The notes under the pieces: generated by a model
Told to the model about the DNA's origin: nothing
Databases searched by the model: none
Seen by the model: the letters and a program-made list of their open reading frames with translations, nothing else
From: Alistipes sp.
GTDB lineage: Bacteria > Bacteroidota > Bacteroidia > Bacteroidales > Rikenellaceae
Direction of reading: 5' to 3'
Assembly: GCA_017630455.1 (NCBI GenBank)
Contig: JAGBVG010000006.1
Coordinates: forward strand, 26,586 to 90,585
Length of the DNA stretch: 64,000 nt
Made by a program: the position numbers and the translations under genes
Part shown: one piece after another, positions 1,772-30,105 of the stretch
How the letters are laid out: each line of letters begins with the position of its first letter
How positions within the stretch are numbered: position 1 is the stretch's first letter

Positions 1772-3784
1772 ATGAGAAGAATAGTTGCCATCATAGCACT
1801 GCTTATCGTGGTTGTCGCGCTCCCACAGAGGGGTACGGCACAATACAACCGTAGCTATATCTACTGGGTGGGACAGCAGTGTATGATCAACAACGACTAC
1901 CGCGAGGCTATAGATGTCCTAAATGTCCTGCTGCGTCACGACGAGAAGGACTTTGACGCCTACTTTCTGCGTGGCATCGCCAAGTATAATATGGACGACC
2001 TCCTTGGTGCGGATGCCGATTTCTCGACAGCCGTAACCCTCAACCCTGTGTTTACGGGGGCGTTCTACTATCGCGCCATAACACGCACACGCCTGGGCAA
2101 CTACGACGACGCTCTCAACGACTTCCAGCAAGCTATAGAGCTGCGTCCCGACCTCCCCGACCCCTACTACAGCCGTGGCGTAACACGACTTCTAAATCAG
2201 CAGTTTGGCCTCGCGATAGAGGATTTCGACAAGTATATCCGCTATGAGAAGCGACACGTGGCTGCCTACATAAATCGCGGCACAAGTTACCTCTATTTGA
2301 AGGATACGGCAAAGGCCTACGAGAACTTCAACCTCGCCATACGCACCAACCGCGAAGACCCCGACGCATACAACCGTCGTGGCTCGCTCTTTATGGATGA
2401 GCGTCGCTACGAGGAGGCACGCGGCGACTTCGATATGGCCGTAGAGTGCGACAGCGCATACCTCCCTGGCTACTTCAACCGCGCGCTTGTGAACAACTAC
2501 CTCCACCGTCCTATGGCGTCGCTGGCCGATTTCGACAAGGTGATAGCCCTCGACTCCACAAACTCGCTCGGATACTTCAACCGCGCCATAGTCCGCTCCG
2601 AAATTGGCGACTACAACCACGCACTCGAGGATTTCAATCAGGTGGCGACATACTCGCCCGACAACGTACTTGTATACTACAACCGTGCGATGCTCCACAC
2701 ACGCCTCGGTAACTTCGACGCTGCGATAGAAGACTACAGCAAGGCCATAGAGCTATACCCCGACTTTGCAAATGCCTACTTGGGTCGCAGTGTGCTTCGC
2801 CGTTCGCAGCGCGATGTGAAGGGTGCGGAGAGCGACGAGCGTACCGCACAGCGTAAGATTGCGGAGTATCGCAAGCGTCTGAAAGACTCCACATACTCGA
2901 TATATGCCGACACGGCGCAACGCTTCGACAAGCTCCTGAGCTTCGAGAGCCGCCTCCTCGAGAGAAACTTCGAGCGTATAGCATCCTCGGTAAATCAGGC
3001 GGGTGACGACGGCCTGACGCTGATACCTATGTTCCGCTTCACGCTTATGAGCGAGGATAGCGTTGCAGTGGATAGCCGCAGCAAGCGTTTCGCGACACAG
3101 CGCGTCAAGGACTTTATAACCAAGATCGACAACCCTCTACTGCAGCTCGATTGTCGCACCTCGAACATCGAGCCAGACTCACTCATAGCCATCGACAAGC
3201 TCCTCAAGGAGCGTATGCACACCGCCGAAACCAAGGAGTGGACACTGCTCTTTGAGCGCGGTATAAGTCAGGCACTTATAAAGCAGTATACCAATGCTGT
3301 GAACACCCTCACGGAGGCTATACACCTCAACCCGTCAAACCCATTCCTATACATCAACCGCGCTACGACACGCGCCGAGATGATAGACTTTATATCCTCT
3401 ATCGACAACAGCTACCAGACCATAACCCTCGACTCCGACCCTGCGAAACGTCTGCACAACACAGGCTCGCGAACATACAGCTATGACGAGGCTATCGAGG
3501 ATGTAAACAAGGCTATAAAGCTATACCCCGACTTTGCCGAGGCGTACTACAACCGTGCCAACCTGATGGCCATCTCGGGCAAGCTCCCAGAGGCCTACGA
3601 GGACTATACGCGAGCTATAGAGTTAGAGCCAAATATGGGCGAGGCGTACTACAACCGTGGTCTGGTGCAGATATTTATGAAGGATACGCGCAAGGGGTGT
3701 ATGGATCTGTCGAAGGCTGGCGAGTTGGGAATCATCTCGGCATACGACATCCTCAAGCAGTTCCGCATTGCGGAGCACAACTAA
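1772..3784 (+). CDS. Exported tetratricopeptide-repeat protein
   Basis: 670 aa. An N-terminal hydrophobic signal (RRIVAIIALLIVVVALPQ, cleavage likely after GTAQ near residue 24) is followed by a run of TPR units along most of the length. The repeat theme is visible as AYYNRA/AYLGRS/GYFNRA followed by G(D/N)YDxAxxDF and AIELxPD. Two TPR blocks (about residues 25-370 and 490-660) are separated by a less repetitive 120-residue stretch around SSVNQAGDDGLTLIPMFRF. Such periplasmic TPR proteins act as protein-interaction scaffolds; no specific partner can be named. It lies 36 bp after era and 43 bp before an MFS gene. Function unknown beyond the fold. Confidence 0.85.
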   Translation: MRRIVAIIALLIVVVALPQRGTAQYNRSYIYWVGQQCMINNDYREAIDVLNVLLRHDEKDFDAYFLRGIAKYNMDDLLGADADFSTAVTLNPVFTGAFYYRAITRTRLGNYDDALNDFQQAIELRPDLPDPYYSRGVTRLLNQQFGLAIEDFDKYIRYEKRHVAAYINRGTSYLYLKDTAKAYENFNLAIRTNREDPDAYNRRGSLFMDERRYEEARGDFDMAVECDSAYLPGYFNRALVNNYLHRPMASLADFDKVIALDSTNSLGYFNRAIVRSEIGDYNHALEDFNQVATYSPDNVLVYYNRAMLHTRLGNFDAAIEDYSKAIELYPDFANAYLGRSVLRRSQRDVKGAESDERTAQRKIAEYRKRLKDSTYSIYADTAQRFDKLLSFESRLLERNFERIASSVNQAGDDGLTLIPMFRFTLMSEDSVAVDSRSKRFATQRVKDFITKIDNPLLQLDCRTSNIEPDSLIAIDKLLKERMHTAETKEWTLLFERGISQALIKQYTNAVNTLTEAIHLNPSNPFLYINRATTRAEMIDFISSIDNSYQTITLDSDPAKRLHNTGSRTYSYDEAIEDVNKAIKLYPDFAEAYYNRANLMAISGKLPEAYEDYTRAIELEPNMGEAYYNRGLVQIFMKDTRKGCMDLSKAGELGIISAYDILKQFRIAEHN

Positions 3785-10102: not shown

Positions 10103-11821
10103 ATGAAAAAGTTATTTTTCTTGTTGTTCGCGTTGCCACTTTTCGCAGCGTGTACAGAGACAGGCAATGAGCCTGAGCCACAGCCTCAGCCAGAGCCTGA
10201 GAAGAAGGCTCAGTTGATCCTCACATCAAATGAGGTTATGAACTTCAACGCCGAGGGCGGCCAGGGTCTTATCGACTACACCCTTGTGAATGCTAAGGAG
10301 GGCGTAGAGTTCGCTTCTGAGTGCGAGGCCGACTGGATCTCAGACTTCGTATTCGGCGAGGACATCACCTTCGTTGTTGCTGAGAACGAGGGCGAGGCTC
10401 GTGAGGCACAGATTGTTATCACCTATGCTGAGGCATCTATGGAGGTAACCGTAAAGCAGGCTGCAAAGACCGAGGAGCCAGAGCCAACGGCTCCTATTAT
10501 CGTCATCTCATCGGAGAATCCTATGGAGTTCGACATGAACGGTGGTATCGGTACTATCGAGTACACTATCGAGAACCCTATCGCTGGCGTATCACTCACT
10601 GCTAAGGCTGACGCAGCTTGGATTGCACAGACCACAGTTCAGGCTGAGAAGATTATCTTCCAGGTGTTGGCAAACGAGGTTGAGGAGGCTCGCGAGGGTA
10701 AGATTACCTTGACCTATGGTATGCTCGAGCCAGTGGAGGTTATCGTGAAGCAGGCAGCATATGCTGCTCCAGCTCCTGTATTCACCTTTGACCCTGCAAC
10801 TTTGGAGGTAAGCTTTGAGGGTGGCGCACAGAGCGTTGCTTACACTATCGAGAACGCTATCGAGGGTGCAGAGGTTGTTGCTACTTGCGAGGCAGCGTGG
10901 GTATCTAACCTCGTTGCTACTAATGGCACTTTGACCTTCGATGTAGCTGCTAACGAGGAGTCACTCCGTCAGGCTATCATCGTTTTGACTTATGGCGACT
11001 ATGCGTTTGAGTACGTCGTTAAGCAGCTTCCTGCAAACTACAACCCAGGTTTGAACTACCTCGCATTCACAGTTGTGGAGGCTTGGGCAGACCTCAAGGA
11101 GGGTGGTAACGTATGGAACGTAACATTCGTTGAGCACGACGAGCTTTTGGGTGATATGCAGACTGTTATCAGCTTCTACATTGAGGAGGCTAACGTTCAC
11201 AGCCTTGTTTCAGGCACATACACTACTGCCGAGGGTACTATCTTGCTTAACAATGCATCACGCAACGGCTACTCTACTTACCGTGCTAACGCATCGTTGG
11301 CAACTGATATCTCAGATGCATCGTTTGTTGTTGCAGTAGATACTGAGACTCAGACTATCTCGTTCGACGGCTCGTTCCAGGCTGGTAACGACATTGTAGC
11401 CTTGAGCTACACAGGCGCAGTACGTGGTATGGACCTTTCAGGTAACACATCTAACGAGGTTAACTGCACAGAGTGGAAGCGTTTCGACAAGAACTATCAG
11501 GATGCTACCGAGTGTATCTTCACTGGTAGATCATCAGACAACGCATTGGAGATTATGTTCCACATCCAGCACTCTGGTGGCACTAAGGTTATCCCTGCAG
11601 GTACTTACGAGGTAGCACCATTCGAGCCACAGGGTGATGTATTGGCAGACACTTCAACTGTTACCTATAACTCTGTAAAGGATTCGTTCGCGTCTGGTTC
11701 TATCACAGTTACTCACCTCCGTGGTATGTACAACTTCGAGTTCGAGATCGTTGATACTCTCGGTCGTCGTTTCACTGGCAACTATACTGGTGAGCTCGGC
11801 AATGGTGGTACAAACCCATAA
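10103..11821 (+). CDS. Triple-BACON surface lipoprotein, 572 aa
   Basis: The signal peptide KKLFFLLFALPLFAAC (Cys17) is nearly the same as that of the gene at 6583. A Glu-Pro-Gln linker leads to three consecutive BACON domains at about 38-124, 132-217 and 225-311. Each has the pattern F-x-GGxGxxxYTxxNA, then C/A-x-A-x-WI/VS, then F-x-V-A-x-NE-x-xREAxIxxTYG, ending VKQ. A C-terminal part of about 255 residues contains two modules like those in the two preceding proteins (GTYTTAEGTILLNN; GTKVIPAGTYEVAPF). No enzyme motif is visible. Duplication within and between these three genes is the obvious origin of the cluster. Whether it shares a transcript with the preceding gene is unclear; no terminator or clear promoter was seen between them. 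Confidence 0.86.
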   Translation: MKKLFFLLFALPLFAACTETGNEPEPQPQPEPEKKAQLILTSNEVMNFNAEGGQGLIDYTLVNAKEGVEFASECEADWISDFVFGEDITFVVAENEGEAREAQIVITYAEASMEVTVKQAAKTEEPEPTAPIIVISSENPMEFDMNGGIGTIEYTIENPIAGVSLTAKADAAWIAQTTVQAEKIIFQVLANEVEEAREGKITLTYGMLEPVEVIVKQAAYAAPAPVFTFDPATLEVSFEGGAQSVAYTIENAIEGAEVVATCEAAWVSNLVATNGTLTFDVAANEESLRQAIIVLTYGDYAFEYVVKQLPANYNPGLNYLAFTVVEAWADLKEGGNVWNVTFVEHDELLGDMQTVISFYIEEANVHSLVSGTYTTAEGTILLNNASRNGYSTYRANASLATDISDASFVVAVDTETQTISFDGSFQAGNDIVALSYTGAVRGMDLSGNTSNEVNCTEWKRFDKNYQDATECIFTGRSSDNALEIMFHIQHSGGTKVIPAGTYEVAPFEPQGDVLADTSTVTYNSVKDSFASGSITVTHLRGMYNFEFEIVDTLGRRFTGNYTGELGNGGTNP

Positions 11822-11868
11822 TCGGCCATTGTAAGGCAATTTCGCGGCTCTGTGGCCGTGAACAAAAC

Positions 11869-11903
11869 GAGGTGTGCTCCGTAGTGGGCACACCTCTTTC
11901 TTT
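11869..11903 (+). terminator. Intrinsic terminator after the BACON cluster
   Basis: GAGGTGTGC (11869-11877) pairs perfectly with GCACACCTC (11888-11896), followed by TTTCTTTTG. Confidence 0.9.
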
Positions 11904-12012
11904 TGTTGTATGGGGGGGGTAAGGAGTTTAGGGAGGATAGGGAGGTTAAGGAGCGAGAGGGATAAAAGTTGTTGCGCGCGATTATAAGACGTTCGGTAGC
12001 GAGAGGGAATTT
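11904..12012. other. Purine-rich intergenic stretch
   Basis: The plus strand here is dominated by G and A (a run of eight or more G near 11910, then AGGAG/GGGAGGATAGGGAGG-like words). No gene, promoter or hairpin explains it. It fills the rest of the 314-bp gap between the third BACON gene and guaA, apart from the terminator and the structured element. Confidence 0.5.
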
Positions 12013-12129
12013 ATTGTCAGAGTGGTACAGATGTGGCGCTGACACGAAAAAGCCACCGATGGGTAGTACTTGACGTACGTCCCATTGGTGGCGTTGACTG
12101 AAGCGTCACAGATGTGCCGCTATCACAAT
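12013..12129 (-). other. Structured 3' element, copy 1 (after guaA)
   Basis: Read on the minus strand it starts with GTGATA 9 nt after the guaA stop codon. Its core hairpin is GCCACCAATGGG (12092-12081) against CCCATCGGTGGC (12063-12052), capped by GTAC-loop-GTAC and followed by five T. An outer arm, ATTGTGATAGCGG against CCACTCTGACAAT, closes the whole element with mismatches. The same architecture recurs after guaB and rny. Part of it may act as a terminator; the conserved outer arm and apex are more than a terminator needs. Confidence 0.75.
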
Positions 12130-12135
12130 AAATTA

Positions 12136-13665
12136 TTATTCCCACTCAATTGTTGCTGGTGGCTTTGAGGAGATGTCGTAGACTACGCGGTTGACGCCTC
12201 GTACCTTGTTGATAATCTCATTCGATAGACGTGCCAAAATCTCATATGGGATATGTACCCAATCGGCAGTCATACCATCGGTAGACTGTACAGCACGGAG
12301 AGCTACGCAACGCTCGTATGTACGCTCATCACCCATAACACCTACCGACTGAACAGGCAACAAGATAGCGCCTGCCTGCCAAATCTTATCGTACCAGCCT
12401 GTCTCGCGGAGGATGTCGAGGTAAATCTTGTCGACGTTCTGCAAAATCTCTACCTTCTCGCGGGTAATCTCACCAAGAATACGGATGGCAAGACCTGGAC
12501 CTGGGAATGGATGACGGTTGATAAGGCGGTCGCTCATACCCATAGAACGGCCTACGCGGCGTACCTCGTCCTTGAACAAAAGACGCAATGGCTCAACAAC
12601 CTTAAGGCCCATCTTCTCTGGAAGACCACCTACGTTATGGTGCGACTTGATGACTACGGCTGTGCCGTTAACCTGCGCTGACTCAACAACATCTGGGTAG
12701 ATAGTACCCTGACCGAGCCACTTAACGCCCTGCAACTTCTTAGCCTCCTGCTCGAAGACCTCCACGAAGTCGCGACCGATAATCTTACGCTTGGTCTCTG
12801 GGTCGGTGACGCCAGCCAAGTCGCCAAGGAACTTCTCCGAAGCATCTACGCCCTTAACATTTAGGCCAAGGCCACGGTAAGAGTCGATAACCTCCGCGAA
12901 CTCATCCTTACGCAAAAGACCCGAGTCAACGAAGATACAGTACAAATTCTCGCCGATAGCCTTGTGCAACAACATCGCAGCAACAGAAGAGTCTACGCCA
13001 CCCGAGAGACCAAGGACAACCTTGTCGTCGCCCAACTTCTCGCGCAACTCCTTAACGGTGCTCTCCACGAAACTATCTGGAGTCCAATCGCCCTTGCAGC
13101 CACAGATGCCCTTCACGAAGTTCTCAATCATTGTGAAGCCCTCCTCAGAGTGGTAAACCTCAGGATGGAACTGGATACCCCAAGTCTGCTCGCCCGCGAT
13201 GCGGTAAGCAGCGCACGCCACATCCTCGGTAGAGGCGATGATGTCGTAACCCTCGGGGATGGTGGTGATGGTGTCGCCGTGGCTCATCCACACCTGTGAT
13301 GATGGTGAGAGACGCTGCATAAGTTCGTCGTCAGCCTTAACGACGCGCATCTGCGCACGGCCATACTCTCTACTTGGTGATGCCTCGACCTTGCCACCGA
13401 AGAAGTGAGCGAGGTACTGCGCACCATAGCATACGCCAAGGAGCGGCATCTTACCCTTGATAGCCTCGAGGTTGAAGCGTGGAGCACCCTCCTCGCGCAC
13501 CGAACGTGGTGAACCAGAGAGAATAACGCCGCGCACCGACTCATCGAGTGTTGGTGGGTTGTTGAATGGGTGAATCTCGCAATATACCATCATCTCACGA
13601 ATGCGTCGTGCGATGAGCTGGGTGTACTGCGACCCAAAGTCTATGATTATAATCTTATCTGTCAT
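12136..13665 (-). CDS. guaA: GMP synthase (glutamine-hydrolysing)
   Basis: 509 aa. Converts XMP to GMP using glutamine and ATP. The N-terminal class I glutamine amidotransferase domain has the nucleophile Cys79 in [12 protein letters not shown] and the His-Glu pair in [14 protein letters not shown]. The ATP pyrophosphatase P-loop is [13 protein letters not shown] (about residue 217-229). The C-terminal dimerisation/XMP-binding domain ends in the expected KPPATIEWE. It lies downstream of guaB on the same strand with a 159-bp gap that contains a copy of the structured element, so the two genes may be separate transcripts or linked by read-through. Full length, no anomalies. Confidence 0.97.
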
Positions 13666-13703
13666 ATAATGTTATAAATTATCTTTCTTATCCCGACCGT
13701 TTG

Positions 13704-13818
13704 GTGTCAGAATGGGTTAGATGCAACGCTCGGCAAAATTGACTACGATGGGCTGTACTTAGGCGTACTGCCCATTGTAGGCATATTTTGTTAGCGGCAG
13801 CAGATGACCCATTATCAC
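13704..13818 (-). other. Structured 3' element, copy 2 (after guaB)
   Basis: Begins GTGATA 6 nt after the guaB stop codon. The core hairpin is GCCTACAATGGGC against GCCCATCGTAGTC with the apex AGTACGCCTAAGTACA. The outer arm is AATGGGT (next to GTGAT) against ACCCATT (next to CTGACAC). Relative to the other copies, two core base pairs have changed on both sides (AC/GT to TA/TA), so pairing is kept. Confidence 0.75.
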
Positions 13819-13824
13819 GCCAAA

Positions 13825-15297
13825 CTACTCGCCTCGTGAGTAGTTAGGTGTCTCCGAAGTGATGGTGATGTCGTGAGGGTGATTCTCCGTAACACCGCTC
13901 GAGGTGATGCGGATGAAACGCGCAGTCTGCAATGTATCGATATCCTTAGCACCACAGTAGCCCATACCCGCACGGAGACCTCCTACCAACTGATATACCG
14001 TCTCGGCAAGCTTACCCTTGAAAGGTACGCGACCCACGATACCCTCTGGAACGAGCTTCATAACATTCACCTCGCCCTTCTGGAAGTAACGATCCGCAGA
14101 ACCAGCCTTCATAGCGTCGATAGAGCCCATACCACGGTAAGCCTTGAACTTACGACCATTATATATAATAGTCTCGCCTGGCGACTCCTCGGTGCCGGCA
14201 AACATAGAGCCCACCATAACGCAGTTACCACCAGCAGCCAATGCCTTAACGATATCGCCAGAGTAACGAAGACCACCATCGGCAATGATAGGCACACCAG
14301 CCTTCTTAGCCTCGGTACTTGCAGCGTAGATAGCCGACAACTGAGGAACGCCAACACCCGCGATGATACGTGTGGTGCAGATAGAGCCAGGGCCGATACC
14401 CACCTTGATGCCATCCGCGCCATTCTCGCAGAGGTACTTTGCAGCCTCGGCAGTGGCGATGTTACCACACACAACGTCGAGGTGTGGATATGTAGCCTTG
14501 ATCTTCTTCAACAAATCGACAACGCCCTTTGTGTGGCCGTGTGCTGAGTCGAGAACCACGGCGTCCACCTCCTCAGCAACAAGAGCTGCCACGCGGTCCA
14601 TAGCGTCTGGGGTGATGCCGATACCCGCAGCTACACGCAAACGGCCCTTAGCATCCTTGCACGCCATAGGGTTATCCTTGAGCTTTGTGATGTCGCGGTA
14701 GGTGATGAGACCCACGAGTTTGCCGTCGTTATCCACTACCGGTAGCTTCTCGATCTTGTTTGCGAGCAACACCTCAGCAGCGCTCTTGAGGTCGGTCTCG
14801 TGTGTTGTCACGATATTCTCCTTGGTCATCACCTCCTCAATCTTGCGCTCCATATCGCTCTGGAAGCGGAGATCGCGGTTTGTGACGATACCAATGAGGT
14901 AACCCTTCTCGTCAACAACAGGGATACCACCAATCTTATTCTCCTGCATAAGGTTGAGCGCATCGCCCACGGTGTTATCCTTGAGGATTGTCACAGGGTC
15001 GTAAATCATACCGCTCTCGGCACGCTTCACACGGCGCACGTGGGCTGCCTGTGCTGCGATGGACATATTCTTGTGGATAACGCCGATACCACCCTCACGC
15101 GCCAAAGCGATAGCGAGCGTAGCCTCAGTAACGGTATCCATAGCCGCCGAGACGATAGGTATGTTCAAAGTGATGTTTCGAGAGAATCGAGCGACTGTCG
15201 ACACCTCGCGAGGCAAAACCTCAGAGTAGGCTGGTACGAGCAACACATCATCAAATGTGAGACCTGTTGGCAGTACCCTTTCATCAATAAATGACAT
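13825..15297 (-). CDS. guaB: IMP dehydrogenase
   Basis: 490 aa, the usual length. Oxidises IMP to XMP with NAD+, the rate-limiting step of GMP synthesis. The TIM barrel opens with [18 protein letters not shown] tandem CBS (Bateman) domain occupies about residues 95-205 ([20 protein letters not shown], then [19 protein letters not shown]). The catalytic loop is [11 protein letters not shown] with Cys307. The product feeds guaA directly downstream. A -7 element on the minus strand at 15337-15344 gives a leader of about 35 nt. No anomalies. Confidence 0.97.
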
Positions 15298-27900: not shown

Positions 27901-27974
27901 GCCTGAATAGCTCAGTTGGTTAGAGCACATGACTGTTAATCATGGGGTCCTAGGTTCAAGTCCTTGTTCAGGCG
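27901..27974 (+). tRNA. tRNA-Asn (anticodon GTT)
   Basis: 74 nt. Acceptor stem GCCTGAA/TTCAGGC, D arm GCTC/GAGC, anticodon stem-loop CATGA-CTGTTAA-TCATG, T loop TTCAAGT. No CCA is encoded. About 125 bp separate it from the first tRNA-Val; that spacer shows no further RNA gene. Confidence 0.95.
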
Positions 27975-28099
27975 CTAAGTGCGAGCGACGTACAAACGAA
28001 GGTGCGATAAGCTGAGGTTCGCAGTCTTGCTTCAGAGATGATGCCAAGACTCTTAAGGAACTTATCATAAACACCAACGGTCGCAAGCATTAAAAAATC

Positions 28100-28174
28100 G
28101 GGAGTTTAGCTCAGCTGGTTCAGAGCATCTGCCTTACAAGCAGAGGGTCGGCGGTTCGAATCCGTCAACTCCCA
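28100..28174 (+). tRNA. tRNA-Val (anticodon TAC), copy 1
   Basis: 75 nt. Acceptor GGGAGTT/AACTCCC, anticodon stem-loop CTGC-CTTACAA-GCAG, T loop TTCGAAT. Likely co-transcribed with tRNA-Asn; a terminator follows. Confidence 0.95.
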
Positions 28175-28181
28175 CTACCAT

Positions 28182-28214
28182 AAGCTACTTGATGATTCGA
28201 GTAGCTTTTTTGTT
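28182..28214 (+). terminator. Terminator after tRNA-Val copy 1
   Basis: AAGCTACT (28182-28189) pairs with AGTAGCTT (28200-28207), then T6. Confidence 0.85.
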
Positions 28215-28288
28215 TTATATACCCGAGGTGTATCCTCCCCGCTCCACCTTTCGAGAAATATAAATGAGCATTATATTCTGTCGGAAAG

Positions 28289-28319
28289 TTTGGAAATTAA
28301 AAAATAATTCTTATCTTTG
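28289..28319 (+). promoter_or_regulatory. Promoter of tRNA-Val copy 2
   Basis: TTTG at 28289-28292, 19 bp, TATCTTTG at 28312-28319. Confidence 0.85.
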
Positions 28320-28339
28320 CACCCGCAAAACCAAAGAGA

Positions 28340-28414
28340 GGGAGTTTAGCTCAGCTGGTTCAGAGCATCTGCCTTACAAGCAGAGGGTCGGCGGTTCGAA
28401 TCCGTCAACTCCCA
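28340..28414 (+). tRNA. tRNA-Val (anticodon TAC), copy 2
   Basis: Identical in all 75 positions to copy 1, with a separate promoter and a terminator built on the same AAGCTACT stem. Confidence 0.95.
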
Positions 28415-28420
28415 CACCAA

Positions 28421-28448
28421 AAGCTACTTGAAATCAAGTAGCTTTTTT
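28421..28448 (+). terminator. Terminator after tRNA-Val copy 2
   Basis: AAGCTACTTG (28421-28430) pairs perfectly with CAAGTAGCTT (28435-28444), followed by a T run. Confidence 0.87.
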
Positions 28449-28455
28449 ATTTGTC

Positions 28456-28569
28456 GTTATAAGGCAGACATCTACTGCAGCTCGGCAAAAATGCCACCGA
28501 TGGGTAGTACTATGCGTACGTCCCATTGGTGGCATTTTTTGTTAGGGGCAGCAATCGACCCCTTATCAC
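28456..28569 (-). other. Structured 3' element, copy 3 (after rny)
   Basis: Begins GTGATA 6 nt after the rny stop codon. Core hairpin ATGCCACCAATGGG against CCCATCGGTGGCAT with apex GTACGCATAGTAC and a following T5. The outer arm GTGATAAGG pairs with CCTTATAAC (8 of 9 positions), a different sequence but the same geometry as copies 1 and 2. Confidence 0.75.
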
Positions 28570-28575
28570 AAGAAA

Positions 28576-30105
28576 TTACTTGGCGTAGGATACTGATCTC
28601 GTCTCGCGAATAACGGTAATCTTCACCTGACCAGGGTATGTCATCTCATCCTGGATCTTCTTTGCTATGTCGTGTGACAATGCCTCAGACTCCTGATCCG
28701 AGAGCTTGTCGGCACCTACGATAACGCGCAACTCACGACCCGCCTGGATGGCGTATGTCTTGATAACACCAGGGTAAGAGAGTGCAATGCCCTCCATCTC
28801 CTTAAGACGCTTGATATACGACTCCACAACCTCGCGGCGAGCACCAGGACGCGCACCCGAGATAGCATCACACACCTGGATGATAGGCGCTATGAGCGAT
28901 GTCATCTCTATCTCGTCGTGGTGAGCACCGATGGCGTTGCATACATCAGGCTTCTCCTTATACTTCTCGGCGAGCTTCATACCGATAATTGCGTGTGGCA
29001 ACTCTGGCTCATCATCAGGCACCTTACCGATATCGTGCAAGAGACCTGCGCGGCGAGCAGCCTTGGGGTTAAGACCCAGCTCCGCAGCCATAATACCTGC
29101 GAGGTTTGCGGTCTCGCGAGCGTGCTGCAAGAGGTTCTGGCCATACGACGAGCGGTACTTCATCTTACCGATGAGACGTATCAACTCTGGGTGCAAGCCG
29201 TGGATACCAAGATCGATTGTAGTACGCTTACCAACCTCGATGATCTCCTCCTCGATCTGCTTCTTGACCTTGGCAACGACCTCCTCGATACGTGCAGGGT
29301 GGATACGGCCGTCGGTAACAAGCTGGTGCAGAGCAAGACGCGCAATCTCACGACGTACAGGATCGAAGCCCGAGAGGATGATAGCCTCAGGGGTGTCGTC
29401 GACGATAATCTCGATACCTGTTGCCGCCTCCAAGGCGCGGATGTTACGACCCTCACGGCCGATGATGCGACCCTTAACCTCATCCGACTCGATGTTGAAT
29501 ACCGTAACGGCATTCTCGATAGCTGTCTCCGTTGCTACGCGCTGGATGGATGCCACCACAATGCGCTTCGCCTCCTTGGTTGCCGAGAGTTTAGCCTCCT
29601 CGATTGTCTCTGCCACGAATGCCGCAGCCTCAGCCTTAGCCTCGCTCTTCATATTCTCTACAAGGATACCCTTTGCCTCCTCAGAGCTCATACCCGAGAT
29701 CTGCTCAAGACGCTCATTCTGAGCACGTACAGCTGCCGAGAGCTCCTCGTTACGCACTGCAGACTCCTGAATCTGTGTGTCGAGCTGTGCTTTGCGCTTG
29801 TCGCACTCCGCCATCTTGCGCTCCAACTCACGCTCCTTGTTCTGGAGGTTATTCTCGAGCTGCTTAGCGCGCTGCTCACTCTGCTGCAACTTCTGGTTAC
29901 GCTCATTCACCTGGCGATCGTGGTCGCTCTTAAGCTGAATAAACTTCTCCTTAGCCTGCAACATCTTCTCCTTCTTTATCATTTCGCCGTCAGCCTCAGC
30001 CTTGTGCAGTATTGCCTTGGCACGTGCGTGCGCCCCGAAATATGCGAGGAAGCCACCTACCACAGCACCTACTATTACACCGACGATTATCCAAATAAAT
30101 TCCAT
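28576..30105 (-). CDS. rny: Ribonuclease Y
   Basis: 509 aa membrane-bound endoribonuclease that initiates mRNA decay. N-terminal transmembrane helix ([21 protein letters not shown]), then a long coiled coil to about residue 195 ([21 protein letters not shown]). The KH domain carries [19 protein letters not shown]. The HD phosphohydrolase domain carries the metal motif LLHDIGKV and the downstream AIGAHHDE. Length and domain order are standard. Gene order coiled-coil protein-zapA-(RNA gene)-rny on the same strand. A structured 3' element begins 6 nt after the stop. Confidence 0.96.

Follow-up and report, generated by a model that had tools for sequence, protein, structure and literature searches.

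The three hairpins that stand directly behind guaA, guaB and rny in an Alistipes genome are probably copies of a many-copy, non-coding, miniature mobile palindromic repeat of about 128 bp, which belongs to Alistipes-like Rikenellaceae. The window, that is the whole stretch of 64,000 nucleotides that was analysed, contains three imperfect palindromes of about this length, each starting at the stop codon of one of the three genes (Table 1). The sequences show that elements of this family have been copied between loci, gained and replaced, that they keep one orientation and are biased in the strand that folds, and that older copies have given way at the same position to unlike ones, with right halves left behind. 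Because dozens of copies stand behind varied genes, the element is not a regulatory device dedicated to guanine-nucleotide genes.

Table 1. Positions in the window of the three elements, their inner hairpins and their host genes.
Feature	Position	Strand	Remarks
Copy 1	12008..12135	- (host-gene strand)	R1 123.8 bits on +
Copy 1, inner hairpin	12052..12092	+	apex GTAC-TTGAC-GTAC; conserved G-U pair G12058-T12086; CTTTTTC next on - strand
guaA, host gene of copy 1	12136..13665	-	NF000848, GMP synthase
Copy 2	13698..13827	- (host-gene strand)	R1 125.4 bits on +
Copy 2, inner hairpin	13743..13780	+	wobble G13747-T13776
guaB, host gene of copy 2	13825..15297	-	TIGR01302, IMP dehydrogenase
Copy 3	28448..28578	- (host-gene strand)	R1 95.1 bits on +
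Copy 3, inner hairpin	28493..28533	+	wobble G28499-T28527; A-run before, T-run after, on both strands
rny, host gene of copy 3	28576..30105	-	TIGR03319, RNase Y

The original prediction, made from the letters of the window, had placed a GTGATA 9, 6 and 6 nt from the three stop codons and had described an inner hairpin, an apex of the form GTAC-N5/6-GTAC and an outer arm. The distances are correct and the described parts are present, in structures that for copies 1-3 fold on both strands better than all 200 dinucleotide shuffles (z -5.3 to -10.3); the gene names were upheld by the matches listed in Table 1. Compared with the proposed extent of about 115 bp, the model match is 5-9 nt longer on each side and runs to or into the stop codon. 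Copy 1, whose outermost arms are AATTTATTG/CAATAAATT, adjoins the guaA stop codon directly (TAA, then TAATTTATTGTGATA), copy 2, sited between guaB and guaA, overlaps the guaB stop codon (TAG TTTGGC GTGATA), and copy 3, with partly unpaired outer arms, overlaps that of rny (TAA TTTCTT GTGATA). The + strand is the better folding strand in copy 1 (-68.9 vs. -51.1 on the - strand) and in copy 2 (-64.9 vs. -50.0). Copy 3 is atypical: its gene-sense strand folds slightly better (-53.1 vs. -51.6), and it is the sole one among 16 copies to do so. Searched with our covariance model R1, the window gave exactly three places (E 2e-28 to 6e-21) and no others at E <= 10, which is no independent proof since copies 1-3 are among the 15 training sequences of R1. 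In the Rfam search of the window the gathering score was reached by three tRNAs only and by no family at copies 1-3, the best sub-threshold match of copy 1 having an E of 0.1. A tRNA-Asn gene and two tRNA-Val genes (27901-28415) converge on rny, and the last of them is followed by a hairpin and T-run that border copy 3.

The family is large in the source genome (2.0 Mb in 93 contigs, 90% complete, 7% contamination), where nucleotide searches at E <= 10 gave 16 matches for copy 1 and 29 for copy 3. Fifteen copies were aligned with MAFFT and folded with RNAalifold, which gave 42 pairs, 26 of them with changes on both sides, and R1 was built from these copies. At E <= 1 the model found 121 matches over the two strands of the source genome, which merged into 75 places; 71 of these were studied and four weak ones were left out. 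The copies elsewhere in the genome stand behind many unrelated genes, for which the names pgk, secA, infB, dnaN and lepA were read from protein ends, without a family search. The further copies sought by the covariance-model search that the original prediction had proposed were thus found, at the 75 places and in 96 of 250 Rikenellaceae genomes (E <= 1e-6), within 3 of 22 genera. R1 had no match in 16 genomes from other families of the order, and copy 1 had none in plasmid and phage records. Within the genus, 14 of the 24 other genomes had R1 matches and 10 had none, and six carried 62-84 among the matches listed, numbers that are neither exact nor copy numbers, as at most 84 candidates per genome were scored here, and at most 13 in the survey of the 250 genomes, and as the two strands of one palindrome may count twice. 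Among relatives with names, the closest are MAGs labelled 'Alistipes sp.' or Rikenellaceae, most of them from the guts of ruminants.

In an alignment of 90 distinct sequences, which was fitted to the model, 39 of the 42 pairs covary with changes on both sides and 96.6% of the cells are standard pairs; none of 500 shuffles attained any of the five measures. The outer helix, formed by the terminal inverted repeats, has nine pairs, eight of them changed on both sides, and is 98.4% paired. It must be noted that the counts given here for covariation, strand bias, stop position and debris come from related copies and are not independent events. In a model-free check the two arms of 85 copies were aligned with all mismatches scored alike, using 20 of the 24 guaA-locus hits (L104, L108, L114 and L116 were left out). 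Read antisense to the host gene, the mismatches were 414 G-T vs. 88 A-C and 409 G-A vs. 72 C-T, which, as the copies are related, cannot be turned into probabilities. Copy by copy, G-T exceeded A-C on the antisense strand in 77 of the 85, fell below it in three and tied in five, and the antisense strand was the better fold in 80 (mean -64.6 vs. -50.9 kcal/mol), with the reverse in five. The model pairs, in an alignment that leans to the modelled strand, include 297 G-U vs. 18 A-C cells. From this bias it follows that the conserved A-C mismatch of the original prediction, which was rightly located, is not a mismatch: with the + strand folded it is a G-U pair, present in 81 of the 90 sequences. 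The loop that carries AGAT in each arm is, on this strand, a tandem G-A/A-G. CGCT follows the right arm in 30 of 108 copies vs. a background of 11%, a weak enrichment.

The positions of the elements relative to stop codons, which might have proved random in the genome-wide search, are strongly non-random. The copy statistics are based on the 65 source-genome copies above 50 bits, reduced to 64 in the position count, which required a 470-nt flank on each side; from the relatives, 36 of the 37 best-scoring copies, hand-listed from 54 fetched loci, entered this count. Under a rule that asks for at least 150 open codons and a stop between -10 and +20 nt from the model start, the left end lay at a same-strand stop in 40/64 source-genome copies and in 25/36 copies from other genomes, the right end in 1/64 and 0/36. 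Neither end had a qualifying stop in 23/64 and 11/36, in some cases because the copy stands second in a tandem or the gene before it is short. In the commonest layout the stop codon forms the first three letters of the element end TAATTTnTTGTGATA, an offset seen in 39 of the 65 copies (36 of them TAA); overall the adjoining stop codon is TAA in 60 of the 65. At guaB the empty loci L113 and L106 and the filled locus L108 all have TAG, and the guaB stop codon predates the element.

Movement of the elements is indicated by near-identical copies at unlike places and by filled and empty sites. Identity reaches 98.5% between two source-genome copies on different contigs and 97.7% in another pair, compared with a median of 62.6%. 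These pairs have unlike flanks, and their identity breaks off close to where the palindrome ends, in one case beyond a shared 13-nt tail; a third pair stays alike across a tail and a further right half. The element at the 3' end of guaB is present in the source genome and in none of 26 other genomes of the genus, as judged by eye and with R1. This presence in just 1 of 27 genus genomes, with the other copies standing behind unrelated genes, leaves a link to GMP synthesis unsupported, and guanine-specific regulation was rejected. Among 26 named guaB-guaA spacers, L108 has an element in the same orientation and L115 a weak match; L108 is filled where L113 and L106 are empty at the same place, and in one pair, L108/L113, no clear target site duplication was seen by eye. 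The spacers of L110, L112 and L118 contain related palindromes that differ in their inner part and are oppositely oriented, two of them in L112. At the 3' end of rny, 4 of 30 loci match R1 (G000, G011, G017 and G022), and a left half was seen by eye in G041 (L219). The elements of L219 and, behind guaA, of L124 are interrupted by unrelated, insertion-sequence-like DNA, which in L219 sits at the apex.

Turnover is best followed at the guaA stop codon, where R1 matches at 24 of 30 named loci and the left end alone was seen by eye at three more (L118, cut by a contig end, L124 and L131). The remaining three (L106, L125 and L126) have other hairpins, by eye followed by T or lying in an AT-rich run. 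Compared pairwise, twenty guaA-locus elements share a median identity of 65.9%, although the GuaA proteins are 89-98% identical; the position stays occupied, but by unlike elements. By eye, right halves of other types lie downstream of the element at guaA loci: in L117 one type is followed by a right half resembling the one in L122, where the arrangement is reversed. When the 220-nt stretches downstream of 122 copies were compared with the family, 54 matched it, 28 as a right half only, 16 as whole tandem copies, one as a left half only, one on the antisense strand only and eight otherwise. Nine abutting pairs were found among the 71 source-genome places; C10:83541 runs counter to the trend, having retained a left half in front of a newer copy.

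Other repeats were met at these loci. The copies at L070, L184 and L186 (C15:3765, C53:52777 and C62:1214) lie within a larger shared repeat, with the flanks AACAAGGTTATTTTG... and ...AAAACTAACTCTTGTTATAC, that may represent a further palindromic family. The guaB-guaA spacers of L105 and L107 contain a short repeat, with runs of GTGAAAAGT and its inverse ACTTTTCAC, and a dispersed repeat (TGTCATCCTGAGCG...GGATCTCCTCG) occurs at several loci, among them L104 (near 3250-3450), L198 and L201.

A mobilising enzyme or a parent element was looked for in the genomes. The Y1 (RAYT/IS200) transposase PF01797 was detected in 5 of 14 control genomes and in none of 31 genus genomes, and a RAYT/REP system was rejected on this basis. 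The Y2 transposase PF04986 was found neither in the 31 genomes nor in any control. A search with the left-end pattern for a longer parent gave 29 places in the source genome vs. one for a control pattern; the only orphan left end read among the 29, C41:35580, runs into an unrelated hairpin, with no gene seen.

Two alternative readings involve the antisense strand. The elements could be a retroelement-like RNA, an antisense transcript ending in UUA that is reverse transcribed from its 3' end at TAA. Priming at TAA would fix the orientation and the left end, as the prevalence of TAA among adjoining stops would suggest, the far junctions, which vary and at which older sequence was lost, would be explained, and the G-U pairs of the antisense strand are RNA-like. 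This reading is nevertheless very unlikely in our view: reverse transcriptase (PF00078), present in 13 of the 31 genomes, is absent from G011, G017, G021 and G022 (MAGs 78-87% complete), which have 62-84 matches among those listed, and present in G002, G007, G014 and G023, which have no R1 matches. It does not track match numbers and is disfavoured as an obligatory partner; no antisense promoter was evident either, a sigma-70 scan of 11700-14000 giving results at chance level. The attC sites of integrons, too, are used as a folded bottom strand, stand behind stop codons and are imperfect hairpins of similar length, so that the position, the single orientation and the folded antisense strand of our elements would all fit. 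Unlike attC, the Alistipes elements have no cassettes, their host genes being resident core genes at conserved places, and no RYYYAAC/GTTRRRY ends were seen by eye in the alignment; integron integrase stayed below the cut-off in all 31 genomes, though also in all 14 controls. We give this interpretation hardly any credence.

Two other alternatives would assign the elements a function in the host transcript. That they are elaborated intrinsic terminators, kept for ending transcription and alike between loci through gene conversion, would agree with their position behind genes, with the other hairpins at the three element-free guaA loci, and with the T-run of at least 4 behind the inner hairpin, which 59 of 85 copies have on the gene strand and 51 of 85 on the other strand. 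However, a terminator needs no outer arm, covarying 128-nt fold or conserved apex, and it does not predict the antisense-strand wobbles, the near-identical copies at unrelated loci or, inside the guaB-guaA gene pair, the presence at guaB in a single genome; we consider it unlikely. A cis-acting regulatory RNA or processing site in the 3'-UTR of the host mRNA would account for the strong covariation and the fixed place behind stop codons, but the gene-sense strand, with its A-C and C-T mismatches, is the worse folder in nearly all copies, copy numbers are patchy (10 of 24 same-genus genomes have none) and the guaB copy is absent from relatives, which makes this quite improbable. Among the three readings offered originally, the strand bias of the wobbles thus speaks against a 3'-UTR regulatory RNA, and the mobile palindromic repeat is the one that is supported. 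REPs at most 15 nt from a stop codon are reported, in PMC12306157, to stall ribosomes, therefore a side effect of the elements on translation is possible.

How a mobile palindromic repeat would come to lie behind stop codons can be sketched as follows. Its recognised or moving form would be the folded single strand antisense to the host gene, on which a putative recombinase or transposase may read the G-A/A-G loop, the fixed G-U pair and the GTAC apex. New copies would join behind a stop codon, where TAA followed by TTT matches the element end TAATTT, and an incoming copy would take over the stop-proximal half of any older copy present. The inner hairpin with its A/T runs may end transcription, to judge from sequence features; the host gene would therefore keep a terminator and the insertion would be tolerated. 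A simple terminator scan, which was near chance overall (3 found vs. 1.8 expected), flagged a single site in copy 1 and nothing in copy 2. Among the 54 stop-adjacent copies with a classifiable neighbour, 31 have a downstream gene in the same direction, an arrangement that would be expected to be rarer, within operons, if the element were a strong terminator. We propose only tentatively, and with more doubt than confidence, that this is a mobile hairpin element of a new kind, homing to stop codons with near-nucleotide precision and renewing itself in place. It is a similarly speculative part of the proposal that the incoming copy might overwrite the stop-proximal half of the resident, often to about the apex, and that this would be driven by a putative enzyme recognising the antisense strand in its folded, single-stranded form, whether DNA or TAA-primed RNA.

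It is useful to compare the elements with the known repeats closest to them, YPAL, ERIC, RUP, RPE and tagged REPs. We regard them as a new family of the REP/YPAL/ERIC kind and assign them neither to REP nor, going by its description, to YPAL. De Gregorio's work of 2006 reportedly found that YPAL inserts close behind stop codons; YPAL also inserts into terminator-like sequences. YPAL/RU-2 of Yersinia is described as a palindromic repeat of about 168 bp that targets sites at dyad symmetry (PMC2229807), and it resembles our elements as a palindrome of 100-200 bp, confined to a lineage, with empty and filled sites. The same source describes inverted repeats within YPAL and duplications of 3-26 bp at its targets, whereas the arms of the Alistipes element reach the very ends and the one filled/empty pair gave no clear duplication. 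GTAG- and CGTC-tagged REPs, according to PMC3733652, are palindromes close to gene 3' ends (at most 20 bp away), as our elements are, and often supply the stop codon TAG, and the CGTC-tagged ones are described there as lacking a dedicated transposase. Stop-codon placement is thus not new in itself. REPs are, by that description, hairpins of 20-40 bp with an unpaired GTAG or CGTC tag, and the fold of about 128 nt, with no strong tag and CGCT only weak, is of another kind. ERIC, RUP, Correia/NEMIS and RPE are likewise small non-autonomous repeats, about 100-200 bp in length, and when transcribed they form long stem-loops (PMC2229807). Several of these have, as described there, TA termini and target duplications, and RPE occurs also inside genes; the Alistipes element differs in having mostly one orientation and its left end on the stop codon.

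A search of the open PMC literature, with preprints and most subscription papers outside it, recognised no description of this family. As far as that literature goes, the family, the covarying structure of about 128 nt with a clear strand and the one-sided replacement history are new. Short palindromic repeats behind genes are common, and this family bears on how the ones that lack a dedicated transposase move and why they are sited at stop codons. Its many copies per genome, many sequenced relatives, layered loci and readable strand make it possible to test which strand moves, what the target is and which enzyme acts. The results also caution against taking conserved, covarying hairpins downstream of housekeeping genes for regulatory RNAs as a matter of course.
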